34,102 bases of DNA from positions 1 through 34,102 of the forward strand of contig NZ_BAOL01000072.1 in NCBI RefSeq assembly GCF_000350145.1, read 5' to 3'. The notes beneath the pieces were generated by a model that was given only the letters and a program-made list of their open reading frames with translations, did not search any database and was not told where the DNA came from. How positions within the stretch are numbered: position 1 is the first letter of the stretch; each line of letters begins with the position of its first letter. Of the stretch, positions 12,253-33,948 are shown piece by piece. Origin of the DNA: Ilumatobacter nonamiensis YM16-303 (GTDB taxonomy: Bacteria; Actinomycetota; Acidimicrobiia; Acidimicrobiales; Ilumatobacteraceae). Made by a program: the position numbers and the translations under genes.

Positions 12253-13191
12253 ATGGCCTCCTGCTGTGGACCGTCGCGAGAATCCGACGACGCGACCATC
12301 TCGCCACCGACCGCGGGGGTCAGCGGGGTCGCCGGCGCGACACGTGACGGTCTCGATCTGATCGCTCTCCCCGGCGGAACGTTCACGATGGGCACGAACG
12401 ATCCACGTGGGTACCCGGACGACGGCGAAGGCCCCGAGCATCGAGTGGAGCTGAGCCCGTTCTCGATCGGCCGGCACCCGGTCACCAACGATCAGTTCGC
12501 CACCTTCGTCGACGCGACCGGCTACCGCACGACCGCCCAGCAGTTCGGCAACTCGTTCGTGTTCGCTGGGCTCCTCCCGGACGAGTTCCCCGATACCCGC
12601 GGCGTGGCCGCGGCGCCGTGGTGGCGCGAGGTGCTCGCCGCGGACTGGCGGCGTCCCGAGGGCCCGCAGAGCAATGTGGACGACCGCGGCGACCACCCGG
12701 TCATCCACGTCAGCTGGCTCGATGCAGTGGCGTACTGCACGTGGAGCGGCACCCGGTTGCCGACCGAAGCGGAGTGGGAGTACGCGGCGCGCGGGGGTCT
12801 CGATGGTTCGCATTTCCCGTGGGGCGACGAGCGGGAACCGGACGGCGAGCACCGCATGAACGTGTACCAAGGGCAGTTCCCCCAGGGCGACGACGGCGAG
12901 GACGGCTTCGTCGGCACGTGCCCGGTCGGCTCGTTCCCTCCGAACGGCCACGGCCTCCACGAGATGACCGGCAACGTGTGGGAGTGGTGCTCGGACTGGT
13001 TCGATCCCGGCTACTACGCGCGTTCAGCAGCGCAGGATCCGGCAGGTCCGAACGGCGGGCGCGCGCGGGTGATGCGCGGCGGGTCGTACCTCTGTCACGA
13101 GAGCTACTGCTGGCGCTATCGAGTCGACGCGCGGAGCGCGAACAGCCCCGACAGCACCACGGGCAACATCGGATTCCGCGTCGCCGCCTGA
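12253..13191 (+). CDS. formylglycine-generating enzyme (SUMF1/FGE)
   Basis: 312 aa. It oxidises the cysteine of C-x-P-x-R motifs in type I sulfatases to formylglycine, using copper and oxygen. The FGE-sulfatase domain starts near residue 36 (LIALPGGTFTMGTNDPRG), passes HPVTNDQFATFVDATGY, RLPTEAEWEYAARGG and GNVWEWCSDWF, and ends with GGSYLCHESYCWRYR. Both active-site cysteines are present (C281, C286), followed by RSANSPDSTTGNIGFR, so this is a true FGE and not one of the many cysteine-free relatives. The N terminus MASCCGPS is like that of actinobacterial FGEs. No clear ribosome-binding site is seen before the ATG. The sulfatase at 631 in this window is an evident client. Confidence 0.93.
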   Translation: MASCCGPSRESDDATISPPTAGVSGVAGATRDGLDLIALPGGTFTMGTNDPRGYPDDGEGPEHRVELSPFSIGRHPVTNDQFATFVDATGYRTTAQQFGNSFVFAGLLPDEFPDTRGVAAAPWWREVLAADWRRPEGPQSNVDDRGDHPVIHVSWLDAVAYCTWSGTRLPTEAEWEYAARGGLDGSHFPWGDEREPDGEHRMNVYQGQFPQGDDGEDGFVGTCPVGSFPPNGHGLHEMTGNVWEWCSDWFDPGYYARSAAQDPAGPNGGRARVMRGGSYLCHESYCWRYRVDARSANSPDSTTGNIGFRVAA

Positions 13192-13221: not shown

Positions 13222-13518
13222 TCAGGTTCCGAGCAGCTTGGCCTTCTGCGCCGCGAATTCTTCTTTGGTGAGAATCCCCTGCTCCATGAGATCGGCGAGC
13301 TGCTTCAGCTGCTCGATCGGGACCGACGACTGCGTGGCCGGTGCCTGCGGTTCCGGCGCGTAATGCGGTTCAGGCGCGTATTGCGGCTGTTGGGCGTACT
13401 GCGGTTCGGCCTGTTGTGTCCACCGGTTGGCCTGTCGGCGCGACACGCGGTTCGACACCGCCGTCGCCGTTCCGGCAATCACTGCGGTGCGGGCCATTCC
13501 TCGAAGCAATCTGGGCAT
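13222..13518 (-). CDS. SHOCT-domain protein with conserved N-terminal helix
   Basis: 98 aa. The N terminus MPRLLRGMARTAVIAGTATA is a weakly hydrophobic, basic helix. The middle is a Gln/Pro/Tyr repeat (QYAPEPHYAPEPQ). The last 30 residues are a SHOCT domain (IEQLKQLADLMEQGILTKEE, then FAAQKAKLL), a short helical module often found at protein ends. GGAG lies 8 nt before the ATG. It follows the DUF6325-like gene by 32 nt and so is probably its operon partner. A frameshifted relative of its N terminus lies at 33796. Function unknown. Confidence 0.82.
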   Translation of the reverse strand: MPRLLRGMARTAVIAGTATAVSNRVSRRQANRWTQQAEPQYAQQPQYAPEPHYAPEPQAPATQSSVPIEQLKQLADLMEQGILTKEEFAAQKAKLLGT

Positions 13519-13550: not shown

Positions 13551-13988
13551 TCAGACCGACTCGGTCGCGTCCAGCGAGTCGAGCACGTCAGTCAGCGGGA
13601 TGTAGCCGGCCGCCACCAGCTGGCCGCCACCATTGCGCATCCCGGTGACGAAGTCTGCCGCCCACCGATTCTCGAAGATCAGGATCCCCGCGGACGCACC
13701 GATCGCGATCGAGTCTCGGGCATCGTCGAGGTCCGATTGGTCGAGCATCCCACTCGACGCTCCCTCGAACACGCTGAGATCGAAATCACCCCCGTCGATC
13801 TCGTGCAGCGACAGCGCGGCCACGGACCCGTCATCACGGCGGGTCACGAACTCGAGGTCGAGGATCCTGATGATCCCCTGATCCACGAGGTCGATCAGAC
13901 TCTGCAAGCCCTCACCGGTCATCTTGTTCTCGGGGAACTCGACGATCAGATAGCTGATCGGTCCCATGGTCACGTCTTCGTCCGACAT
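13551..13988 (-). CDS. DUF6325-like protein (copy A)
   Basis: 145 aa. It starts MSDEDVTMGPISYLIVEFPE, continues with a TGEGLQSLIDLVDQGIIRIL helix/strand pair, and ends with FENRWAADFVTGMRNGGGQL and YIPLTDVLDSL, the pattern of small actinobacterial DUF6325 proteins. It has no membrane segment of normal length and no known catalytic motif. The ATG at 13988 is fixed by GGAGG about 7 nt upstream; a longer frame to 14195 reads non-coding sequence. It is followed by the SHOCT gene. The upstream gap carries a full copy of the palindromic element (14043-14072). A second DUF6325-like/SHOCT pair lies at 26708-27387. Confidence 0.82.
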   Translation of the reverse strand: MSDEDVTMGPISYLIVEFPENKMTGEGLQSLIDLVDQGIIRILDLEFVTRRDDGSVAALSLHEIDGGDFDLSVFEGASSGMLDQSDLDDARDSIAIGASAGILIFENRWAADFVTGMRNGGGQLVAAGYIPLTDVLDSLDATESV

Positions 13989-14042
13989 CTTGATCCTCCG
14001 TGCTGCGTGGTCGGTGTGCTGACGCCATCGTTCACCCAGCTC

Positions 14043-14072
14043 GGGTAGGCGCGCTCTACCCGGTGCGGGGTG
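14043..14072 (-). promoter_or_regulatory. palindromic operator candidate, site 1 (three half-sites)
   Basis: Read toward the DUF6325-like gene: CACCC-N6-GGGTA-N9-TACCC. The gene-proximal half-site ends 54 nt before the start at 13988. A further CACCC-N5-GGGTA pair overlaps it at 14033-14047, and CGGGTAG/CTACCCG (14042-14062) is a perfect 7-bp inverted repeat. Confidence 0.7.
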
Positions 14073-14091: not shown

Positions 14092-14892
14092 TCAGAAGAC
14101 CGTCGGGACGGTGTACGGGGTGAGGTCGATCTCGACGTGCTCGGAGGGCGCCGGCCGCTCGGGGAGCTCGACCGTGAGCGGGTCGAGCGGTTCATAGGGC
14201 AACTGGCTCAGCAGGTGGGTGATCAGGTTGAGTCGGCCGCGTCGCTTGTCGTCGGTGCGAACGACGCTCCAGGGCGCCCAGCCGCTGTGCGTCGCCGTGA
14301 TCATGTCGTCGCGGGCTTCACCGAAGTCGTACCACATGGTGTACGACCGGAGATCCATGTCGGACAGCTTCCAGATCTTGCGCGGATCGTCGATGCGCGA
14401 CTGGAGCCGCTTGGTCTGCTCCTGCTCACCCACCTCGAGCCAGTACTTGAGAAGAATGATTCCCGAGTCGACCATGGCGCGCTCCACATCCGGAACCATT
14501 CGCAGGAAGCGCTCGGTGTCGTCCTCGCTGCAGAATCCCATCACCCGTTCGACTCCGGCGCGGTTGTACCAGCTGCGATCGAAGATCACGACTTCCCCGG
14601 CCGCCGGAAGGTGCGGCACGTAGCGCTGGATGTACATCTGCGACTTCTCGCGTTCGGTCGGTGCGGGAAGTGCCACGACCCGGAACACCCTCGGGCTCAC
14701 CTTGGCGGTGATCGCCTTGATCGTTCCGCCCTTGCCAGCCGAGTCGCGACCCTCGAACACGACGCAGACCTTCGCGCCGGTCGCCTTCACCCACTCCTGG
14801 AGTGCCACGAGTTCGGCGTGGAGCCGTTTGAGTTCGCGCTCGTACGCCTTGCGTGACAGCTTGTCGGGTCCTGATCGAGTTTTCTTTCCCAC
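14092..14892 (-). CDS. ppk2: polyphosphate kinase 2 (PPK2 family)
   Basis: 266 aa, the usual size for a single-domain PPK2. These enzymes transfer phosphate between polyphosphate and nucleoside mono- or diphosphates, and many favour making GTP or ATP from polyphosphate. Walker A is EGRDSAGKGG (47-56) and Walker B is VVIFDRSWYN (101-110), followed by RAGVERVMGF. The lid region has Arg/Lys-rich helices near 150-170, and the later DLRSYTMWYDFGEARDDM matches the family. The start is GTG at 14892; the ribosome-binding site is poor (GGAGG is about 16 nt away). The upstream gap (14893-14952) holds operator candidate site 2. Together with the CYTH and Ppx genes it points to polyphosphate turnover in this region. 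Confidence 0.92.
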   Translation of the reverse strand: MGKKTRSGPDKLSRKAYERELKRLHAELVALQEWVKATGAKVCVVFEGRDSAGKGGTIKAITAKVSPRVFRVVALPAPTEREKSQMYIQRYVPHLPAAGEVVIFDRSWYNRAGVERVMGFCSEDDTERFLRMVPDVERAMVDSGIILLKYWLEVGEQEQTKRLQSRIDDPRKIWKLSDMDLRSYTMWYDFGEARDDMITATHSGWAPWSVVRTDDKRRGRLNLITHLLSQLPYEPLDPLTVELPERPAPSEHVEIDLTPYTVPTVF

Positions 14893-14927
14893 GGCCCCAC
14901 TCTGAACCTCCGCCCGACGGGCGGCAT

Positions 14928-14943
14928 CACCCGCGCGCGGGTG
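14928..14943 (-). promoter_or_regulatory. palindromic operator candidate, site 2
   Basis: CACCC-GCGCGC-GGGTG is a perfect 16-bp palindrome, 35 nt before the PPK2 start codon at 14892. The third half-site seen at sites 1, 3, 4 and 6 is not present at the N9 position. Confidence 0.65.
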
Positions 14944-16305: not shown

Positions 16306-17643
16306 CTAGGTTGCCGGCGCCTCGTTCGGGACGGTCGCGGCGATCGGTCCACTCTTGCGACGCGACTTCCACACCGCATCGAGGACGATGCTCATCACGA
16401 TGATGACGACCAACGCCACGGCCGTACCCGGCTCGTCGACCAGAGTCGTCACCGCGAAGGTGATCAACACCGCGGCTGTCGTTCCGATCGCGAGCAGGAG
16501 CATGCCCATGTTCGCTCCCGTCTCGCCCCGGACGCGCAGGTGCCCGATCGACACCATCGCGAACACGAGCAGGGCGATCGCACTACCGATCGAGGCGATC
16601 GCACTGAGGTCGAAGCCGACGGCGAGCACACTCGATGCGATCGCCGTGAGCACCAATCCCATCGGGGCGTGGTCGGCGACGCGCGACCCGAGCCAGGGCG
16701 GAAACTGACCGAGCAACGCCATCTCGTCGCAGAGCCCCGCCGCGGGATACAGGCCCGCATTGGTCGCCCCCGCCGTGGCGAACAGCGCGGTCACACTCAT
16801 GAGCCAGTACCCCGCCTGGCCGAGCGTCGGCTCAGCCGCGACCGCGATCGCGGTGCCACCCGAGTCGATGACCTCCTGGACGCTCAGCGTCCCGAACACA
16901 CCGAGGGCGACCGCGACATACACCGTGAGTGCGAGACCCAGTGCCAGATACATCGCTTTGGGAAGCTGACGGGACGGATCGCGCAGGTCCTTGGCCGTGA
17001 AGGTGATCACGCCGAACCCGAGGAAGGCGAAGAAGGTCAACGCGACGCTGGAGACGATGTCGCGCACGGACGGATAGCCCGAGAAGGCGAGCAGGTCGGG
17101 ATCGATGTTGACCAGTGTGGTGATCGCGAACAGCGACAGGATGCCGATCACGACGTAGACGACGACGGTCTGGGCATGGGCCACCACCGTGGAACCGAAC
17201 AGGTTCAGGCCGGTCATCACGACGACGACGAGTACCGCGAAGCACTTGATCGCGAACTCGTTGTCGGTGGAGTCGGTGACGGCCGCGCTGGCGTAGCTCC
17301 CGAACGACACGGCGACCATTCCGGTGATGATCGCGTTGGTGGCCAACAACAGCCAGGCGATGATGCCCGTGACATGCCCGTCGCCGTACCCGCGTCGGAC
17401 GTACTCGAGCATGCCGCCCGCGGTGGGGTACCGCGCCCCGAGGCGTGCGAACGAATAGCCCTGCAGGAGGGCGATCACGCCGGCGAAGAGAAACGAGATC
17501 CAGACGGCTGCACCGGCAACCTCACCGGCGGCACCCAGCAACGAGAAGATCCCGGCGCCGACCATTGCACCCACTCCGATGAAGGCCGCCTGGCGGATTC
17601 CGATCGCGTGCGCAGATGGCGCGGGCGTGTCAGCGCTCGTCAT
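16306..17643 (-). CDS. APC-superfamily amino acid permease
   Basis: 445 aa, about twelve membrane segments. The first one contains the APC hallmark GVGAMVGAGIFSLLG (near residue 20), where the broken helix binds substrate and ion. Another typical region is FFAFLGFGVITFTAKDLRDP (near 200), the conserved loop of amino-acid/polyamine permeases. The substrate is not determinable. I chose the ATG at 17643 because GGAGG sits 8 nt upstream and the first helix follows shortly after. The ClC gene follows 3 nt after the stop. The operator candidate site 3 lies only 22 nt upstream, so the element must overlap the promoter or leader. Confidence 0.88.
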   Translation of the reverse strand: MTSADTPAPSAHAIGIRQAAFIGVGAMVGAGIFSLLGAAGEVAGAAVWISFLFAGVIALLQGYSFARLGARYPTAGGMLEYVRRGYGDGHVTGIIAWLLLATNAIITGMVAVSFGSYASAAVTDSTDNEFAIKCFAVLVVVVMTGLNLFGSTVVAHAQTVVVYVVIGILSLFAITTLVNIDPDLLAFSGYPSVRDIVSSVALTFFAFLGFGVITFTAKDLRDPSRQLPKAMYLALGLALTVYVAVALGVFGTLSVQEVIDSGGTAIAVAAEPTLGQAGYWLMSVTALFATAGATNAGLYPAAGLCDEMALLGQFPPWLGSRVADHAPMGLVLTAIASSVLAVGFDLSAIASIGSAIALLVFAMVSIGHLRVRGETGANMGMLLLAIGTTAAVLITFAVTTLVDEPGTAVALVVIIVMSIVLDAVWKSRRKSGPIAATVPNEAPAT

Positions 17644-17665
17644 CGGTTCATCCTCCGCGCGGGGC

Positions 17666-17695
17666 GGGTGGTCGCTCCCCACCCCCGCCGGGGTG
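17666..17695 (-). promoter_or_regulatory. palindromic operator candidate, site 3 (three half-sites)
   Basis: Read toward the permease gene: CACCC-N6-GGGTG-N9-CACCC. The inner pair extends to CCACCCC/GGGGTGG (17679-17696). The gene-proximal half-site ends 22 nt before the ATG at 17643, close enough to overlap a core promoter. It lies in the gap after the CYTH-Ppx gene (stop at 17708). Confidence 0.72.
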
Positions 17696-20001: not shown

Positions 20002-20026
20002 TCGGCCGGGGTCAGACCCCGGTCGA
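20002..20026. terminator. hairpin between convergent genes, copy 2 of a dispersed palindrome
   Basis: CCGGGG (20006-20011), a 5-nt loop and CCCCGG (20017-20022) form the core; with TCGG/TCGA flanks and one G:T pair the stem reaches 10 bp. The P-type ATPase stop codon (20012-20014) lies in the loop, and the convergent gene ends at 19997. A bidirectional terminator is likely, although T-runs are absent. Its reverse complement matches the hairpin at 12210-12236. Confidence 0.6.
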
Positions 20027-22759
20027 TACACCGGCGAACGACTCGTCGACCTTGCGCAGCTGCAGCATCTTGTCGATCCAGACGATCGCCGGAGCGAGGG
20101 CCGACAACCCGATGCAGATCGCCCATTGGGAACCGCTCAGCGAGGTGCTGAGCAGCAGGCGCTGCAGCATGCCGAGTTCGACCGCTGCCCAGGTGAGCGC
20201 CCAGCCGAGCAGGATCCACCCCATGTAGGGGAAGATCGGCGACGCCCACACCGGCTCACGTTCGCGACGCATGACGACACCCATGTTGACCGAACTCAAC
20301 GCCACGACGGCGAAGGCCATGGTCATCGAGACGCTGGCGAACTCGGTGCTCGGCTCGTCAGGACCCCATGACAGCAACGACAGCGCGCTCACGGCGACCA
20401 CGAAGCCGCTCACGAACCACCGGATGATCTGGTCACGGTTGACGATCCGCGTCCCCGGCGTACGCGGCGGTCGCTGCATCACGCCCGGGTCGGGCACATC
20501 GACGACGAAGCCGACCACCACCGCCACGACGACGAACAGCTTGCAGAACAGCAGCATCATCGGGAACATCGCGACGCCGCCGTTGATGTCGAGGATCGTC
20601 GCGAGCAGCATCAGCTGGAGCACGGACGACAGGATCGTGAGCTGGAGCTTCACGTACGAGGTGATCCGGCGGTAGATGTCACGTCCGAGATCGACCGCGT
20701 GGACGAGCGTCGCGAAGTTGTCGTCGGTCAAGACCATCTTGGCGGCCTGCTTGGACACCTCGGAGCCGCTGCCCATCGCGACGCCGACGTCGGCCTGCTT
20801 CAGTGCGGCGGCATCGTTGACGGCATCCCCGGTCATCGCGACGACCTCTCCCGACTCCTGCATGAGGCGCGCGAGGCGGACCTTGTCCTCGGGAGCGACC
20901 CGACCGAACACGTGGAGCTCGGGAAGGTTCTCGACCACGTCGGCGTCGCTCATCGCGCGGAGTTCGGCTCCCGTGGCCACGCCGGCGCCCAGTCCGAGTT
21001 CGTCCGCAATGGCGCGTGCGGTGATCGTGTGGTCGCCCGTGATCATGCGCACGTCGATCCCCGCCGAGAGTGCGATGGCCACGGCATCCTTCGCCTCGGT
21101 CCGCAGCGGGTCGATGATCCCGACGAGCGCGATGAAACGCAGATCGTGAACCGCCCCCATCGGATCGTCGAGGCCAGCGGTCGCCGCCGCCGGGTCGAGC
21201 TCGCGCACGGCGAAGGCCAGCACGCGCAGACCACGCTCCGACAGCTGCCGGTTGGCGGCGAGAATGTCCTCACGCACCTGATCGACCGGCACCTCGTCAC
21301 CGTGCCAGAGGGCGTGGCTGCACCGCCCGAGCACCACGTCCGGAGCTCCCTTCACCGTCATGAAGTGCGGTTCGGTCAGCACCCCTCCGACCATCCAGTC
21401 CGGGCGTTCGTGGATCGTCGCCATGAACTTGTAGTCGGAATCGAACGGCACTTCGGCGCGGCGCGGGAGCTCCCGTCGCGTTTGCTCCGCCTCCACGCCC
21501 AACTTCGCGGCGAGAACCACGAGCGCGGCTTCGGTCGGGTCGCCGATCACCGTGCCGTCATCGGCGACGGTCGCGTCGCTGCACAGCGTCAGACCGAGGC
21601 CCAAGCGCTTGAACTCGGGGGGTGTGGTCCCGGCGACGCTGAGAACCGCCCCCGACTTCTCGTAGCCGCCGCCCTCGATCTTGAACCATTCGCCGCCGGC
21701 GAGCATGCTCGTGGCGGTCATCGCGTTCATGGTGAGCGTGCCGGTCTTGTCGCTGTTGATGACGGTCGTGCCGCCGAGCGTCTCGACGTCGGTCAGGCTC
21801 CGGACCACAGCTTTGTGCTCGGCGAGGCGACGCGCTCCCGAGCCGAGGATCGTCTGCACGAAGGTGGGCAACCCAGTGGGAATCGCCGAGATCGCCGTGG
21901 TCACGCAGAGCAGCGCGAGCGTCTCGCCATCTTGGTCACGGATGATCCCGAAGAGCGCGATGATCCCGACCGCCGTCGCAGCCATCACGCCGAACACCTT
22001 CGTCATCCCGTCCAGCTCCTGCTGGAGCGGCGACCGGGTGCGCGTCGTCGCCGACACCATGTCGGCGATCAGGCCCATCTGCGTCGTCGCACCAGTCGAG
22101 GTCACCATGAAGCTCGCCGATCCGCGGGTCACCTGTGTGTTCTGGAACACCATGTTGGTCCGGTCGCCGAGCGGAACCTCCGCACCCGGGATTGCCGCAA
22201 CGCCCTTCGGGATCGGCGCACTCTCGCCGGTCAGGGCAGCCTCTTGCGTCTCCAGGGTCGCAGACGACAACACCCGACCGTCGGCCGGGACGAGGTCGCC
22301 CGCTTCCACCAACACCACATCGCCGGGCACCAGTTCGCTCGAGGGCAGCTGTTGGACCTCACCATCGCGTCGGACCCGAGCATGCGGGACCTGGAGTTGA
22401 GCGAGCGCGTCGACGCTCGCGAGTGCCTTCTTCTCCTGGCTGGTGCCCATCAGCACGTTGAACGACACCAACAGCGTCACGATCACACCGGTCGGGATCT
22501 GTTCGATCGCGTAGCTCACGACGGCCACGATGATCAACATGATGTTCATCGGATTGGTGAGCTGGGCGCGCGCGATCGTCCACGTGCTCGGCGGCGGCTC
22601 CTTGGTGATTTCGTTCGGGCCGTATTTCGCCAGTCGATCGCGGACGTCATCCGCCGACAGCCCGCGGTCCGGATCGACATCGAGTCGAGTGGCCGTGGCG
22701 TTCGGATCGAGTGACCACCAATCGGAGTCAGCCGCCGTGTTCAGTTCGGTCGTGGTCAT
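20012..22759 (-). CDS. P-type cation-transporting ATPase (P2/P3-like)
   Basis: 915 aa, full length. In order: an N-terminal cation-ATPase domain (GLSADDVRDRLAKYGPNEI, 33-51), TGES (177-180) in the actuator domain, PTGLP (294-298) in M4, the phosphorylation motif NSDKTGTLT with D337, KGAP in the nucleotide-binding domain, MITGDHTITA, and the hinge TGDAVNDAAALK, followed by six C-terminal membrane segments. Three canonical motifs differ: M4 PEGLP has Thr for Glu, CSDKTG has Asn for Cys, and TGDGVNDAPAL has two Gly/Pro to Ala changes. The M4 change makes classical Ca2+ pumping less likely, so the ion is unknown (H+, Na+, K+ or Mg2+ possible). GAGG precedes the ATG. It follows the PLDc_N-SHOCT gene by 26 nt and is the last gene of the CYTH operon. 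Confidence 0.9.
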   Translation of the reverse strand: MTTTELNTAADSDWWSLDPNATATRLDVDPDRGLSADDVRDRLAKYGPNEITKEPPPSTWTIARAQLTNPMNIMLIIVAVVSYAIEQIPTGVIVTLLVSFNVLMGTSQEKKALASVDALAQLQVPHARVRRDGEVQQLPSSELVPGDVVLVEAGDLVPADGRVLSSATLETQEAALTGESAPIPKGVAAIPGAEVPLGDRTNMVFQNTQVTRGSASFMVTSTGATTQMGLIADMVSATTRTRSPLQQELDGMTKVFGVMAATAVGIIALFGIIRDQDGETLALLCVTTAISAIPTGLPTFVQTILGSGARRLAEHKAVVRSLTDVETLGGTTVINSDKTGTLTMNAMTATSMLAGGEWFKIEGGGYEKSGAVLSVAGTTPPEFKRLGLGLTLCSDATVADDGTVIGDPTEAALVVLAAKLGVEAEQTRRELPRRAEVPFDSDYKFMATIHERPDWMVGGVLTEPHFMTVKGAPDVVLGRCSHALWHGDEVPVDQVREDILAANRQLSERGLRVLAFAVRELDPAAATAGLDDPMGAVHDLRFIALVGIIDPLRTEAKDAVAIALSAGIDVRMITGDHTITARAIADELGLGAGVATGAELRAMSDADVVENLPELHVFGRVAPEDKVRLARLMQESGEVVAMTGDAVNDAAALKQADVGVAMGSGSEVSKQAAKMVLTDDNFATLVHAVDLGRDIYRRITSYVKLQLTILSSVLQLMLLATILDINGGVAMFPMMLLFCKLFVVVAVVVGFVVDVPDPGVMQRPPRTPGTRIVNRDQIIRWFVSGFVVAVSALSLLSWGPDEPSTEFASVSMTMAFAVVALSSVNMGVVMRREREPVWASPIFPYMGWILLGWALTWAAVELGMLQRLLLSTSLSGSQWAICIGLSALAPAIVWIDKMLQLRKVDESFAGVSTGV

Positions 22760-22785: not shown

Positions 22786-23190
22786 TCAGGCGAGTGCTCG
22801 TGCCTTTGCCTGTGCGAACTCGTCATCGGAGAGCACGCCCTTTTCGTGCAGCTCGGCCAATCGTGCCACCTCCTCTGCCGCGTTCCGGGGATTCGTCGCG
22901 GCGGTCTCCTGAACGTAGGACCGGAACTGCTGCTCACGTTCCTGCGCGTTGCGGATACTCCGCTCCTGCATCGACTTGCCGCGGGCGATCAGGTACACGA
23001 ACACGCCGAGGAACGGGAGGAAGATCACGAAGATCGTCCACAACGCCTTTCCCCATCCCAACAGGTCATCGCTGCGGAAGATGTCCGAGAAGACCGTGAT
23101 GACCGTCCAGATCCAGAAGAAGAACAGTGTGAACCAGAGCATCGACCAGAGGACCTGGCCCGTTCCGAATTGGGCGAGCAGAGCAATCAT
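22786..23190 (-). CDS. PLDc_N-type membrane protein with C-terminal SHOCT domain
   Basis: 134 aa. Two strongly hydrophobic segments lie in the first 70 residues (WSMLWFTLFFFWIWTVITVF and ALWTIFVIFLPFLGVFVYLI), the two-helix PLDc_N module found without any phospholipase domain in many actinobacteria. A charged linker (RGKSMQERSIRNAQEREQQF) leads to a SHOCT domain (AEEVARLAELHEKGVLSDDE, then FAQAKARAL). GGGAGG lies upstream of the ATG. It sits between the CYTH protein and the P-type ATPase on one strand. Function unknown; small membrane adaptor is a guess. Confidence 0.85.
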   Translation of the reverse strand: MIALLAQFGTGQVLWSMLWFTLFFFWIWTVITVFSDIFRSDDLLGWGKALWTIFVIFLPFLGVFVYLIARGKSMQERSIRNAQEREQQFRSYVQETAATNPRNAAEEVARLAELHEKGVLSDDEFAQAKARALA

Positions 23191-23269: not shown

Positions 23270-24070
23270 TCATGACCCGGAGTCGACGGCCGCGATCTCG
23301 GCGGAGAAGAACTCGAGTGCGGTGCGCGTCTTCGTCTGCTGCTCCGCCAGGAGGTCGACACCGTGAGATGCCAAGAAGACCTTGGTCTCCGCGGCAACCT
23401 CGAACGCCTCACGCGGTGAACACTTGGTCGACAGCTCCAGCAGCCTCGTTCCGTCCGGGTAGTTCCAGAGCTCGGCGACCATCCGGTGCTCGAAGTCCGC
23501 GGGCGTGAACTTGAGCTTCAGGACGTTGATCGGTCCGAGGCGGCGCAGTTCGTCGAGCTCCAGCCCTTCGGGAGCGTGCTCGGCAAAGAACTTCCGCTGG
23601 TCCTTCGACAGGAGCTTGCGGATCGACGCCGCGCCATCGAACACGGCCTTGACCGCTGCGTCATCATGCTTGGCCTTCATGCTCGCCGAGCACACGAACC
23701 CACCGGGCATGGCGTCGACCTCGACACCGAACAGCTTCGACTTCCGCAATGACGGCGACAACTGCGCGGGGATGACCGGACGCAGCTTGACGACGGTGTC
23801 CCCCTCGCGGCCCTGGACTCGTCGGGCGCGCACCACCACACCACAGCGATTGAGCGCGAGATCGGGCGTGTCGAAGAAGACGACCTGGCGGATCTGTGCC
23901 TCGATGGGGTCGAGACCCAACGCGGACACCGTGGATCGGCGATTGGCATCGGGAACGCTCAATTTGAGCTCGACGGAGTCGGCGCCCTTGATGAGCGCGA
24001 GCAACTCGGCGAGCTGATCCGGGGACAACGCGTCGTTGCCCGGCCGGGTATCGACTGGTGTTTCGGACAC
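23270..24070 (-). CDS. CYTH-like domain protein
   Basis: 266 aa from the GTG at 24070. The family's ExExK-type motif appears as SVELKLSV (32-39). It is followed by FFDTPDLALNRCGVVVRARR (65-84) and DTVVKLRP (91-98), the paired basic strands that line a triphosphate tunnel in CYTH proteins. The C-terminal part (LKLKFTPADFEHRMVAELWN onward) completes the barrel. CYTH enzymes bind or cleave triphosphates such as thiamine triphosphate, tripolyphosphate or polyphosphate, and neighbours here favour polyphosphate. I chose the GTG at 24070 because AGGAG (24077-24081) sits 6 nt ahead of it; GTGs at 24091 and 24100 are alternatives. It starts a likely three-gene operon ending with the P-type ATPase and diverges from the LuxR regulator. 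Confidence 0.85.
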   Translation of the reverse strand: MSETPVDTRPGNDALSPDQLAELLALIKGADSVELKLSVPDANRRSTVSALGLDPIEAQIRQVVFFDTPDLALNRCGVVVRARRVQGREGDTVVKLRPVIPAQLSPSLRKSKLFGVEVDAMPGGFVCSASMKAKHDDAAVKAVFDGAASIRKLLSKDQRKFFAEHAPEGLELDELRRLGPINVLKLKFTPADFEHRMVAELWNYPDGTRLLELSTKCSPREAFEVAAETKVFLASHGVDLLAEQQTKTRTALEFFSAEIAAVDSGS

Positions 24071-24081: not shown

Positions 24082-24114
24082 GCTCGTCCACGTGACACAC
24101 GATCGCAGCGTCCG

Positions 24115-24144
24115 GGGTGGAGACACCCCACCCGGGTCGGGGTG
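24115..24144. promoter_or_regulatory. palindromic operator candidate, site 4 (three half-sites, divergent promoter)
   Basis: Read toward the CYTH gene: CACCC-N6-GGGTG-N9-CACCC. An additional CACCC abuts it (24124-24128). The central pair (24129-24144) is 58 nt from the CYTH start at 24070 and 58 nt from the regulator start at 24203, so it could serve both directions, including autoregulation. Confidence 0.72.
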
Positions 24145-24188
24145 GGGCCGTGCACCACGTGATCGAACGGCTCTGTGCGGCGGTCCGA

Positions 24189-24194
24189 TAGTGT
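24189..24194 (+). promoter_or_regulatory. candidate -10 element for a leaderless regulator transcript
   Basis: TAGTGT fits the TAnnnT pattern of actinobacterial -10 elements and ends 8 nt before GTG 24203, so transcription could begin at or next to the start codon. No ribosome-binding site precedes any of the candidate GTG codons, which favours a leaderless message. No clear -35 is present. Confidence 0.35.
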
Positions 24195-24202
24195 CTGCGG
24201 TC

Positions 24203-26731
24203 GTGTCACGAGTGTCGGTCCCGCATCGACTTCCGCGCTTCTATCTGCGTCGTCCGTGGATGATCCGACGGCTCTCGACCGCGGCGCCTGTCACCTTGGT
24301 CATGGGCCCGGCCGGAATCGGCAAGACGACTGCGGTGGCCGGATGGACCAACGAATCCGACGATCCGATCGCGTGGATCAGGTGTGTGCCCAGCGATCAA
24401 GCGTCCGTCGCCTTCTGGCCGTCGATCGACAAGGCGCTGCGTTCGGCGATCGGGGACGAGAGCCACGACTCGAGTGTCGTCCGGTCTCTGGCTCCCGACG
24501 ACGCCGCTCTCGAACTGGTCGCCCTCCTCGACACGATGCTCGAGCGCGACACCGTGCTGGTGATCGACGACTACCACCTCGCCGAGGATGGGGGCCTCAC
24601 ATCGTCGATGGAGCTTTTTCTCGATCGGCTTCCCCTCCGGCTCCGAGTCGTGATCGTGTCTCGAAACGCGCCGATGTTCCCGCGCGATCGCATGCGCGTC
24701 GCGGGAGACCTCTCCGAGATCGACGTCGACGATCTGCGGTTCTCGAGTCTCGATGCGGCTGATCTCCTCCAGATGCTGGCGCCCGACATGGAGCCGGCTG
24801 TCGCCACGAAGATCGCTGCGGTGTCGGACGGGTGGGTCGCGGCGCTCCGGCTCGGCGCGCTGGCGTGGACATCGCGCCCTCACGAATCGTTCGAGATCGA
24901 GGCTCCGATCGATCATCTCGAGGATTGGGTGTTCCGCGAGGTGTTGGGAACCGAGTCAGCGTCGCTCGTGAGCTTTCTCGCCGACCTGGCGATCGTCGAC
25001 CATGCGTCGATCGGCCTCGCCCAGGCGATCACGGAGCGCCCGGACACGAGTGACCTGCTCGAGTTGGCACAGAACCGAGGGGTGTTCGTCTCGCGTGTCG
25101 GCGTCCAGGGGCACTACGCGATCCATCCTGCCGTGCGGAACGCACTGCTCACCCGGCGAGAGCAGCGCGATCCGGTCCGTCTGAAAGCGTGTCGCAGACG
25201 AGCGGCCGCATGGCTCGAAGGAAACGACGACACGATCGAGGCTCTGGAGCAGTACCTGCTCGCCGACGAGCAGGACGACGCGCTGCGGCTGCTGTCCGAC
25301 CGCCACGTCCAACTCTATGACGGCGGTGCCGCAGAGGCGGTTCGTGGCCTCCTCGCGAAAGTCGGACCAGCGGCGGCAGCGCGGAACGTCGGGAGCCTGC
25401 TCGACGTGGCCTGGTGTCAACTGCTGGCCGACGTACCCTCGTTCTGCGAGAACGTCGAGCAGGCCACCTGGTGGTCTGAGCACGACGGCTCCACGGATCC
25501 CCTCGAGACCAGGCGTCTTCACGCGCTTCAGGCGATCGTGTGGCTGTCGCGTGGCCACTCGGAACGGGCGGAGAGCGCGGCCCGATCGGCCCTCGAGGGG
25601 GACGCTCCGTGGTACGACGACCCGATCATCCGAACCACCTGGAACGACGTCGCACGGACGATCGCCGTCTCGGAACGTTGGGACGATGCATCGGATCATG
25701 TGCGCGAGGTCACGGTCGTGCTTCGGAGGGATCCGACCCGCACCCTGGTGCTCGAGGCGACCCGTGCACTGGGGCGGGCGCTCGCCGGCTGTCCGGTCGA
25801 CGCCCTGCGAGCCGCGAGCGGGGCACGAACCTCGTCGACTCTCGCCAACCTGACGATGTCGGTGGGCGAACTCGCCCTCGCCGAGGTGATCGCACGCCGA
25901 GAACTGGGCGACGCCGACGATGCTGTCCCTGAACTCGAACGACTCATCGATGCCGATGTCGGACCGCTCGCGTACGTACGCGGGTTTGCGGCCGCCGAAT
26001 TGACGCACCTGCATCTCGACCGCGGTTCGCTCGCCGAGGCGAACCACACGTTCGACCGACTCGAACGCATCGTCAGCGATGAAATGCCCGGGCCTGACGG
26101 GCAGACGCTGCTCGGCCGGGTCGGAACCGTCGTGTCGTCCGAGGTCGGAGACCGAGAACAGGCGCAGCTCTGGGCGGACATCGTCGACGACTCCTTCTGG
26201 GGTCCGGTCAGTCGAGCACGCCTCCTGCCGACGACAACCGCCGAACTCGCACAGCAGCTGCTCGCGGAGGCCGTGGCACGTACCCCGCGGCATGCCGTGA
26301 TCTTGGCCATGCTCAGGGCGCGGTACGCGACCGATCGGGACACGACCACCACGTTGGTGGAGTCGGCGGTCGAGATCGCGTACGAGAACAACCTGCTCCA
26401 GACCCTCGCCTCGGCTGGTCAGCACGAAGTGATCGAGCGGGTCGCGTGGCGTCTGCCCGAGGAGTGGATGGACCGCCTGCGGCGTGCGACTGCCGTGGTG
26501 CAGCCCGGAGTCGACACGAGTGCGTCGCTCGTCGAACCACTGACGGTTCGAGAGCGCGATGTGCTCCGGTTCCTCCCCAGTCGTCTAACGCTCAAGGAGA
26601 TCGCGTCCGAGCTGTACGTCTCGGTGAACACGCTCAAGTTCCACCTCAAGGTGATCTACCGGAAGCTCGGCGTCAACTCTCGCGCGGAGGCGGCCGAGAT
26701 CGCTCGGTCATGGAGCCGGGTCGATCACTGA
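24203..26731 (+). CDS. LuxR-family MalT-like (STAND) transcriptional regulator
   Basis: About 842 aa. The protein opens with VPHRLPRFYLRRPWMIRRL and a Walker A GPAGIGKTT (35-43), with Walker B TVLVIDDYHLAED near 117-129: the NTPase switch of MalT-type STAND regulators. A long helical, TPR-like middle (about 350-760) is the usual sensor arm. The last 65 residues are a LuxR helix-turn-helix: LTVRERDVLRFLPS, then LTLKEIASELYVSVNTLKFH and LKVIYRKLGVNSRAEA. Such proteins activate when they bind ATP and an inducer. The start is GTG at 24203, or GTG at 24191 (four residues longer); the frame reaches 24092 but that part crosses the operator and reads as non-coding. It overlaps the convergent SHOCT gene by 24 nt. 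It is the only regulator adjacent to an operator site. Confidence 0.9.
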   Translation: MSRVSVPHRLPRFYLRRPWMIRRLSTAAPVTLVMGPAGIGKTTAVAGWTNESDDPIAWIRCVPSDQASVAFWPSIDKALRSAIGDESHDSSVVRSLAPDDAALELVALLDTMLERDTVLVIDDYHLAEDGGLTSSMELFLDRLPLRLRVVIVSRNAPMFPRDRMRVAGDLSEIDVDDLRFSSLDAADLLQMLAPDMEPAVATKIAAVSDGWVAALRLGALAWTSRPHESFEIEAPIDHLEDWVFREVLGTESASLVSFLADLAIVDHASIGLAQAITERPDTSDLLELAQNRGVFVSRVGVQGHYAIHPAVRNALLTRREQRDPVRLKACRRRAAAWLEGNDDTIEALEQYLLADEQDDALRLLSDRHVQLYDGGAAEAVRGLLAKVGPAAAARNVGSLLDVAWCQLLADVPSFCENVEQATWWSEHDGSTDPLETRRLHALQAIVWLSRGHSERAESAARSALEGDAPWYDDPIIRTTWNDVARTIAVSERWDDASDHVREVTVVLRRDPTRTLVLEATRALGRALAGCPVDALRAASGARTSSTLANLTMSVGELALAEVIARRELGDADDAVPELERLIDADVGPLAYVRGFAAAELTHLHLDRGSLAEANHTFDRLERIVSDEMPGPDGQTLLGRVGTVVSSEVGDREQAQLWADIVDDSFWGPVSRARLLPTTTAELAQQLLAEAVARTPRHAVILAMLRARYATDRDTTTTLVESAVEIAYENNLLQTLASAGQHEVIERVAWRLPEEWMDRLRRATAVVQPGVDTSASLVEPLTVRERDVLRFLPSRLTLKEIASELYVSVNTLKFHLKVIYRKLGVNSRAEAAEIARSWSRVDH

Positions 26732-26935
26732 TCGCCCATCAGGGTCGACGACCTTCCGCCTCTGGCGCTCGAACTCGGTGCTCGAGAGCAATCCCCTCTC
26801 GAGCAGTGCCGTCAGCTCCTCGAGTTGCTCGGCCACGTCGATCACCGGACGATGCGGCTGCGGAAGATCGACCAGCCACGGGCTGCGATCGAGGAGCTCC
26901 TGCGGTGAGCGCTCACGCGGTCGACGGGAGGTCAC
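26708..26935 (-). CDS. small SHOCT-like protein
   Basis: 75 aa. Residues about 34-62 (VAEQLEELTALLERGLLSST, then EFERQRRKVV) match the SHOCT helix-turn pattern; the N terminus is basic and Pro-rich, with no membrane segment. The ATG at 26935 overlaps the stop of the DUF6325-like gene (ATGA), so the pair is coupled. The 3' end runs 24 nt into the convergent regulator gene. It lacks the MPxLLRGxARTAVIA head of the SHOCT protein at 13222. Confidence 0.72.
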   Translation of the reverse strand: MTSRRPRERSPQELLDRSPWLVDLPQPHRPVIDVAEQLEELTALLERGLLSSTEFERQRRKVVDPDGRSVIDPAP

Positions 26936-27387
26936 AGCGTTTCCCGCCGAGGCGACCGAAGCTGCGGCAGCACTTCGATGAGGCGAGCGGCGGGAATACG
27001 CTCACCACCCGCGACGTAGCCACCGACCGCTCGAACGGCCGAGGCGAGCGGCTGGGCCCACTCGTCCTCGACGACCACGACGACGGCGAGCGACCTGGCG
27101 GGAAGCGCCACGGCGATGAGTTCGAGGTCATGTGAGCTCAACACACCGCGTCGCGCTTCGAGCAGCGCCGGTCGGCACTCTGATCTCGGCATCTCCAAGG
27201 TGACGACCTCTCCAGATCGGTCGTGCCCGACGATCGCCCCGTCCAGGAGAACCACCTGTCTTCGCGATGCCAGGGTCTCGACGGCATCGAGGACGTCCTC
27301 GATCGACCTCTCGTCGGGCACGACCACGACGAGGTATTCGACGAGCTGCGGGTCGACGGATCGACCAGTTTCGCGGCGTACGCTCAC
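26932..27387 (-). CDS. DUF6325-like protein (copy B)
   Basis: 151 aa from the GTG at 27387. It begins VSVRRETGRSVDPQLVEYLV, and its C-terminal half (LAVVVVVEDEWAQPLASAV, then GGYVAGGERIPAARLIEVL) aligns by eye with the DUF6325-like protein at 13551 (FENRWAADFVTGMRNGGGQL and YIPLTDVLDSL). The similarity is fold-level, not close. AAGGAG (27396-27401) lies 8 nt upstream and decides the start; the longer ATG frame to 27447 lacks this. Coupled to the SHOCT-like gene by ATGA overlap, it repeats the DUF6325/SHOCT gene order of 13222-13988. Operator candidate site 5 lies upstream. Confidence 0.7.
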   Translation of the reverse strand: MSVRRETGRSVDPQLVEYLVVVVPDERSIEDVLDAVETLASRRQVVLLDGAIVGHDRSGEVVTLEMPRSECRPALLEARRGVLSSHDLELIAVALPARSLAVVVVVEDEWAQPLASAVRAVGGYVAGGERIPAARLIEVLPQLRSPRRETL

Positions 27388-27395
27388 CGGCGCTG

Positions 27396-27401
27396 CTCCT
27401 T
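27396..27401 (-). promoter_or_regulatory. ribosome-binding site deciding the copy B start
   Basis: AAGGAG on the minus strand, 8 nt before GTG 27387. It favours this start over the ATG at 27447. Confidence 0.55.
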
Positions 27402-27476
27402 CGGGATGAGATCCGATTCCGGCACGACGTCGGATTGGCTTGCCCAATCCTGGACCACGTCGGCGGGGTCGAGGAC

Positions 27477-27492
27477 CACCCTCGGCGGGGTG
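27477..27492 (-). promoter_or_regulatory. palindromic operator candidate, site 5
   Basis: CACCC-N6-GGGTG, extended to ACCACCC/GGGTGGT (27475-27494). It lies 89 nt before GTG 27387, in the gap after the ABC ATPase gene (stop at 27509). A third half-site is degenerate (a GACCC on the gene side, wrong spacing). Confidence 0.65.
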
Positions 27493-33682: not shown

Positions 33683-33712
33683 CACCCCTCGCCGGGTGGA
33701 GCGTCGCCACCC
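33683..33712 (+). promoter_or_regulatory. palindromic operator candidate, site 6 (three half-sites)
   Basis: Read toward the right: CACCC-N6-GGGTG-N9-CACCC, with the inner pair extended to CCACCC/GGGTGG. This is the only site facing a plus-strand gene, and its asymmetric third half-site is again on the gene side. It is 83 nt from the SHOCT remnant at 33796 and 131 nt from the minus-strand membrane gene. Confidence 0.72.
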
Positions 33713-33795
33713 GCGCTGGATCCATCATGGGCCCGGGCAGAGAGGCCGGCCCATCGCGCCGAACCGGTCGGATCGATCGAAGAGGAGAACGACGT

Positions 33796-33948
33796 ATGCC
33801 AGGATTGTTCAGGGGCGTGGCCCGAACGGCCGTGATCGCCGTTCATGGCAAACACACGAGTCGAACAGGGTGCCGTGATCATGCGTTCCACCGGTCGTTC
33901 GCAACGGATTCAGCAGCAAGCCAACCGATGGACACGGAGCAGACATGA
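33796..33948 (+). pseudogene. remnant of a SHOCT-protein N terminus, frameshifted and truncated
   Basis: The open frame reads MPGLFRGVARTAVIAVHGKH and stops at 33948. The first 15 residues match the SHOCT protein at 13222 (MPRLLRGMARTAVIA). After that the homologous pieces lie in other frames: SNRV around 33864-33875 and QANRWT near 33919-33936. The middle also has extra bases relative to the intact gene, and the SHOCT end is missing altogether. A good ribosome-binding site (GAGGAG, about 8 nt upstream of the ATG) is kept, so a short peptide could still be made. The next gene starts inside its end (33945). Confidence 0.65.

Follow-up and report, generated by a model that had tools for sequence, protein, structure and literature searches.

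We found that six genes or operons of the window, that is, of the whole 34,102-nucleotide stretch of Ilumatobacter nonamiensis YM16-303 DNA analysed here, carry upstream an inverted pair of half-sites separated by six nucleotides (an N6 dyad), in four cases followed by a third half-site. These elements have a fixed geometry, a one-sided polarity and a set spacing to a –10-like hexamer, recur in two other genomes and co-occur with one clade of LAL-type regulators in which the recognition helix has changed. Judging from sequence comparison, the elements are probably activator-dependent promoters of a MalT-like (LAL/STAND LuxR) regulon, the regulator of which would be encoded in the window itself, at 24092–26731.

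Half-site elements in the window

Reading toward the downstream gene, sites 1, 3, 4 and 6 follow the pattern CACCC-N6-GGGTR-N9-YACCC. Site 1 (14027–14072, minus strand; CACCC-N6-GGGTA-N9-TACCC-N10-AACGAT, with the halves at 14043–14072), which departs from GGGTG and CACCC in halves 2 and 3, respectively, is a candidate promoter of the first DUF6325-SHOCT gene pair. Site 3 (17650–17695, minus strand; halves at 17666–17695), site 4 (24099–24144, minus strand; halves at 24115–24144) and site 6 (33683–33728, plus strand; halves at 33683–33712) all read CACCC-N6-GGGTG-N9-CACCC-N10, followed by GAGGAT, GATCGT and CATCAT, respectively; site 3 precedes an amino acid permease gene, and sites 4 and 6 are candidate promoters of a CYTH-like gene and a small open reading frame (ORF), respectively. 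The other two sites retain the dyad CACCC-N6-GGGTG. Site 2 (14899–14943, minus strand; dyad at 14928–14943, –10-like CAGAGT at 14899–14904) lies before a polyphosphate kinase 2 (PPK2) gene and has no third half, and site 5 (27447–27492, minus strand; dyad at 27477–27492, –10-like CAGGAT) lies before a second DUF6325-like gene and has a degenerate third half. The full pattern of the window is CCACCC-N6-GGGTGG-N7-CCACCC-N10-NANNNT.

The original prediction had described these arrays accurately: the N9 spacing is exact at sites 1, 3, 4 and 6, the GGGTA and TACCC variants of site 1 are real, halves 1 and 3 lie 25 bp apart from start to start, polarity follows the gene at 4/4 three-half sites, and 22 nt separate the element of site 3 from the ATG at 17643. 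Two features had been overlooked, namely the –10-like hexamer and an inverted repeat formed by halves 2 and 3. The latter is a perfect 6-bp repeat (GGGTRG-N7-CYACCC) in 4/4 three-half sites of the window, and its symmetry is kept in site 1 by matched changes (GGGTAG/CTACCC).

When all 6-mer palindromes of the window with spacers of 0–15 nt were ranked without bias, CCACCC-N6-GGGTGG came first (4 observed versus 0.02 expected) and GGGTGG-N7-CCACCC second (3 versus 0.02). With at most one mismatch, CACCC-N6-GGGTG occurred seven times in the window, compared with 1.7 expected (shuffles as control). It had been argued that such a fixed asymmetric spacing is hard to obtain by chance, and the probability of YACCC at one fixed offset in 4/6 dyads, corrected for offsets and orientation, is indeed ~2e-8, a figure that may overstate the surprise because shared ancestry of the four sites is possible. 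The listed sites scored at least 35 bits in a profile, against a background of 4.5 bits in the window; site 2 lies outside that profile, and its score is below the 35-bit level. The full pattern (three halves and –10) has four copies in the I. nonamiensis genome and was absent from 396 other genomes of the order; all four copies lie on the window contig, and this confinement of the exact composite rules out a dispersed repeat.

Site 1 also contains a fourth half-site, a GGGTG that follows the TACCC of half 3 after five nucleotides (N5). This second pair, halves 3 and 4, looks like the N5-type dyads that relatives have, and no –10 was found at the matching distance from it.

A –10-like hexamer at a fixed distance

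A NANNNT hexamer resembling a –10 element begins 24 nt after GGGTG at sites 1, 3, 4, 5 and 6 and 23 nt after it at site 2, in one orientation only. The corrected probability of finding 5/6 hexamers at one offset by chance is ~6e-6. The consensus is loose and the individual hexamers are weak matches, so that the call is credible because of their fixed position rather than their strength.

If the hexamer is taken to begin at –12, this fixed spacing of 23–24 nt places the dyad at approximately –52 to –37, overlapping the –35 position, and the third half at approximately –27 to –23; the 3΄ end of the dyad thus lies ~36 nt before the predicted start, a distance that rests on the assigned –10-like hexamers. 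This arrangement supports the earlier proposal that the element overlaps the core promoter. At sites 2 and 3, the predicted start coincides with the first base of the start codon (PPK2, 14892; permease, 17643), and leaderless mRNAs are predicted for both. At sites 1, 4 and 6, the predicted starts lie ~20–60 nt upstream of start codons at 13988, 24070 and 33796, which were assigned by reading the sequence, and the start codon downstream of site 5 is uncertain.

Genes downstream of the elements

The target of site 1 encodes a DUF6325 protein (13551–13988, minus strand; ATG at 13988, assigned by reading the sequence), followed by a SHOCT protein gene (13222–13518, minus strand), and this pair is conserved in relatives. 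For DUF6325, no mention was found in the literature searched, and used as the sole query against the genome contigs it gave no match. The same island contains a sulfatase and a sulfatase-modifying-factor-type (FGE) protein (631–2118 and 12253–13191), and sulfatase or FGE-like genes also occur near DUF6325 genes in three related loci (L081, L083 and L087). Site 2 precedes the PPK2 gene (14092–14892, minus strand; GTG at 14892), and site 3 precedes the permease gene (16306–17643, minus strand), a homologue of which in Acidimicrobiia bacterium FR_1 (locus L230) has a matching promoter architecture.

The target of site 4 is a CYTH-like protein gene (23270–24070, minus strand; GTG at 24070), named by reading in the absence of a Pfam match; no relative of its product was found in the family at E 1e-20. 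The site 4 operon probably includes a PLDc_N-SHOCT protein gene (22786–23190, minus strand), which in relatives is a direct target of such promoters, and a P-type cation ATPase gene (20012–22759) lies downstream of it on the same strand. Site 5 precedes the second DUF6325-like gene (26932–27447, minus strand; start uncertain), after which there is a weak SHOCT match at 26753–26830. The 50-aa ORF downstream of site 6 (33796–33948) resembles the SHOCT protein at its N-terminus (MPGLFRGVARTAVIA) and then diverges; it is perhaps a decayed SHOCT copy or a leader ORF. Its stop codon overlaps the ATG (33945) of a gene that is cut by the contig end (33945–34102) and looks like one for a membrane protein. 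Neither this gene nor the ORF had a Pfam match.

The LAL-type regulator and its recognition helix

The proposed binder of the sites is a LAL-type LuxR regulator (24092–26731, plus strand) with a MalT-like NOD module, a GerE DNA-binding domain and the recognition helix NTLKFHLK. Its gene diverges from the CYTH-like gene with site 4 between them, and its true start is probably near 24190. The best match among solved structures was Escherichia coli MalT (8bob, E 5.9e-24). The best NCBIfam model was also MalT (NF003420), with a score of 193.7 bits that is far below the 537-bit cut-off, so that the ligand and other details may differ.

Closest relatives of this LAL were found near N6/N9 sites in both FR_1 and another genome, G637. 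In the helix-turn-helix domain, the FR_1 and G637 proteins were 82% and 86% identical to the window LAL, respectively, whereas the other LALs found did not exceed 59%. Only these three proteins have NTLKFHLK in the recognition helix; at the same position, the other LALs found mostly read VK[T/A]H, and some read LKTH, VRTH, VKTQ or VKTY. In an alignment with NarL, the Phe of the helix falls on the residue that is flanked by the recognition-helix Lys and His and that we take to be V189, which contacts bases in NarL. Across the three genomes with N6/N9 sites, the helix of the regulator and its putative operator therefore appear to vary together.

The N6/N9 variant in two other genomes

Scanning 395 genomes of the class for the full pattern with at most one mismatch, we obtained four copies in this genome, three in FR_1, one exact copy in G637 and one mismatched copy, inside a coding sequence, in a genome of the order (G132). 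Among the genomes scanned, exact copies outside I. nonamiensis thus occurred only in FR_1 and G637, which are listed in the same class and not in the same order. Third-half spacing in further copies served as a refutation test of the original prediction, and in the four additional copies, all from these two Acidimicrobiia genomes, the spacers are N6 and N9 without exception, with N10 before the –10. Of the 11 N6 dyads found across all three genomes, eight have their third half at offset 9, with at most one at any other offset. Halves 1 and 2 are present in 11/11 and half 3 is missing in 3/11; NANNNT follows at 23 or 24 nt, in one orientation only, in 11/11. When the ten sites of the window and FR_1 were aligned, both half 1 and half 3 were preceded by an invariant C.

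The three exact FR_1 copies all lie on one 16.5-kb contig, where they stand before three genes: one for a PLDc_N-SHOCT protein, one for the homologue of the permease downstream of site 3 and one for ornithine carbamoyltransferase, which belongs to an arginine deiminase cluster. FR_1 has one more dyad, before a DUF6325-like gene. At the carbamoyltransferase site, GGGTGG is paired with CTACCC, and the symmetry of halves 2 and 3 is lost. Genes for ornithine carbamoyltransferase, a carbamate-kinase-like amino acid kinase, arginine deiminase, a DcuC-family carrier and PPK2 stand in a row in FR_1 (L230, 6829–12963), and their position downstream of a three-half-site promoter links the regulon to arginine fermentation. 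The FR_1 homologues of the LAL, permease and ATPase change frame inside the gene (L230, 1956–4467, 5604–6877 and 12965–15682), through either sequencing errors of a metagenome-assembled genome or real frameshifts; the sequences were read as they are.

The G637 genome was found by the operator pattern search. Its site lies ~4 kb from a relative of the window LAL (44.5% identity, E 1e-143), which is the only window protein with a relative within 60 kb around the site. This LKFH-type LAL (L241+L240+L242, C1:1615000–1674700) has no DUF6325 or SHOCT genes nearby; its neighbours, named by reading only, resemble a glycogen-debranching enzyme and a glucosidase, and the site precedes the latter.

Several other candidates were discarded. 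Exact triple matches in 148 relatives appeared to be mostly chance or coding-sequence matches. One of them, in G016, lies ~4 kb from a DUF6325 gene but lacks a suitably placed –10, and the LAL of that genome reads LKTH. A wide CACCC-N(3–9)-GGGTG scan of 14 genomes was too unspecific.

N5 dyads in relatives across actinobacteria

We collected 20 regions around DUF6325 genes, 19 of them in other genomes within the order and one on a different contig of the I. nonamiensis genome. The top 6-mer palindrome in these regions was TCACCC-N5-GGGTGA (8 observed versus 0.09 expected), and many of the regions have a LAL-type gene close to DUF6325. The extended form ATCACCC-N5-GGGTGAT was present in 11/298 genomes of the order, compared with none for the reversed control. 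A similarity search with the SHOCT protein then supplied 80 loci, most of them from named actinobacteria. In these, the unbiased palindrome ranking again placed TCACCC-N5-GGGTGA first (23 versus 0.37) and TCATCC-N5-GGATGA second (11 versus 0.1); one of these loci alone, from FR_1 (L205), had an N6/N9 copy.

Of 163 oriented TCAYCC-N5-GGRTGA dyads, 76 have NANNNT 22 or 23 nt after GGRTGA, compared with ~2–3 per offset elsewhere, and their –10 distance equals that of the N6 dyads of the window. No preferred offset for a third half was found in these 76 N5 promoters, and the window is without any TCAYCC-N5-GGRTGA dyad that has a –10. Dyads and LAL genes tend to occur together (both in 11 loci, dyad only in 9, LAL only in 4, neither in 37; Fisher test, P = 2.6e-4), with no LAL detected at 9/20 loci with dyads. 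Such dyads, followed by a –10 after 22 or 23 nt, were seen near DUF6325 and SHOCT genes in Streptomyces, Actinoplanes, Cellulomonas, Nocardioides and other actinobacteria (L131–L210 and L069–L104). These patterns suggest that the N5 dyads mark a phylum-wide MalT-like regulon, which is not described under that name in the literature searched.

Comparison with known systems

In the maltose-regulated region of Actinoplanes sp. SE50/110, the motif of MalT (ACSP50_3915) is TCATCC-5 nt-GGATGA; it lies 34.4 ± 1.0 nt before mapped starts, overlapping –35, and deletion of malT lowers transcription of 42/51 genes (PMC7567727). This motif is TCATCC-N5-GGATGA, one of the top two in our unbiased ranking of relatives, which makes the window a diverged example of a type of regulon already known. 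As in Actinoplanes, a LAL/MalT-like LuxR regulator is encoded within the gene cluster (24092–26731), and palindromic hexamers would overlap –35 at ~35 nt from the start, which in the window is a predicted one. The Actinoplanes region holds an amino acid permease, arginine deiminase, ornithine carbamoyltransferase and carbamate kinase, and its relatives have ppk2 (PMC7567727); the window has the permease and PPK2, and the full arginine deiminase set is found only in FR_1, the window contig ending at the place concerned. The window differs in its spacer (6 rather than 5), its half-site (CCACCC rather than TCATCC) and its branch of the phylum, and no third half-site is described for Actinoplanes. 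Activation with induction by maltose is a feature of the Actinoplanes regulon.

E. coli MalT recognizes boxes of the form GGGGA(T/G)GAGG (PMC10427625, PMC7567727) and binds several sites as a multimer (PMC10427625). The window LAL would resemble it as a STAND/NOD activator that multimerises on several sites, with a box by –35, and GGGTGG/GGRTGA of the window and its relatives resembles GGATGA; however, the window has a symmetric dyad and a third half inside the –35/–10 spacer, and its protein scores far below the MalT model cut-off. Spacer contacts are known in actinobacteria from the SARP afs box (–40 to –19) and the PafBC –26 element (PMC10936776). Half 3 of the window would occupy a similar spacer position by its –10 spacing. 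Both the SARP and the PafBC contacts make up for a poor –35. SARP sites consist of direct repeats with an 11-bp spacing, unlike the inverted pair plus one more half seen here, and the window LAL has a LuxR-type (GerE) domain, unlike SARP. A –26-type contact is not described for MalT or LAL proteins in the literature searched.

Proposed mechanism and role of the third half-site

From these comparisons, we infer that the LAL protein would bind and activate these promoters, that transcription would begin at the predicted starts and that the LAL itself may contact half 3. The LuxR-type domains of the activated LAL would bind halves 1 and 2 (the CCACCC-N6-GGGTGG dyad), the dyad, ending at about –36, would replace or overlap the –35 element, and RNA polymerase would use the –10 hexamer 23–24 nt downstream. 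Half 3 would most likely serve one more protomer, positioned between the dyad and the –10, in the manner of the downstream SARP protomer or of the PafBC –26 element in sigma adaptation. Such a protomer at –27 to –23 is plausible by analogy, given the multimers of MalT and the spacer contacts of SARP and PafBC. The original proposal that one multimer contacts all three halves is not established; half 3 is dispensable and is absent from the N5 promoters, and the dyad of halves 1 and 2 is the constant part. A more specific reading is that of a derived STAND code, in which the inverted pair (approximately –52 to –37) and a third half in the spacer, contacted by another protomer of one oligomer, changed together with the helix Phe (mostly Thr/Ala in other LALs). 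We put this forward tentatively, with a probability somewhat short of even.

It is also conceivable, if rather unlikely, that the promoters contain two overlapping dyads, of which halves 1 and 2 would activate and halves 2 and 3, centred near –32, would serve as an alternative site for the regulator or for a separate repressor that blocks RNA polymerase, making the promoter self-limiting or switchable. The perfect repeat of halves 2 and 3 in four window sites, with the matched change in site 1, slightly favours this reading, and a protein at that position would occlude the core promoter. However, the FR_1 carbamoyltransferase site does not keep the symmetry, no second regulator is implicated, and halves 2 and 3 occur together in 8/11 sites whereas halves 1 and 2 occur in all.

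We consider it unlikely that half 3 is a functionless leftover or by-product, arising from promoter duplication or templated mutation in a palindrome, with the dyad alone sufficient. Its loss from 3/11 N6 promoters and from essentially all N5 promoters fits this idea, as would a possible origin of the window sites by duplication. On the other hand, N9 is constant across genomes of different orders although the flanks are not conserved, including at the permease promoter common to the window and FR_1, and half 3 is preceded by C in all ten aligned sites.

A hairpin or attenuator in the leader RNA, suggested by the palindromic form and the one compensatory change in site 1, is very improbable and was rejected, since the –10-like hexamer lies downstream of the element, which would consequently not be transcribed, and the predicted starts at sites 2 and 3 fall on the start codon. 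Chance or the composition of G+C-rich sequence, in which CACCC (64) and GGGTG (49) are common 5-mers of the window, has a negligible probability and is rejected by the shuffles, the unbiased palindrome ranking and the genome controls, in agreement with the corrected probabilities for the third half and the –10, the absence of the composite from other genomes of the order and the drop in profile score from the weakest listed site to the background.

Activator-dependent promoters of a MalT-like regulon thus remain our preferred reading. MalT-like STAND regulators occur across actinobacteria, where the Actinoplanes region is the one well-studied case. The geometry of a dyad, 23–24 nt and a –10 makes such promoters recognizable from sequence alone, and it yields the 76 oriented candidate promoters in related loci. 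The Actinoplanes region, with its links to polyphosphate kinase, arginine deiminase and an amino acid permease, is suggested to be part of a regulon that extends through the phylum and is linked with DUF6325/SHOCT genes. With the N6/N9 variant and the matching helix change, the reading of half-site arrays by a STAND activator, and its contact with RNA polymerase, could be studied as a natural experiment.
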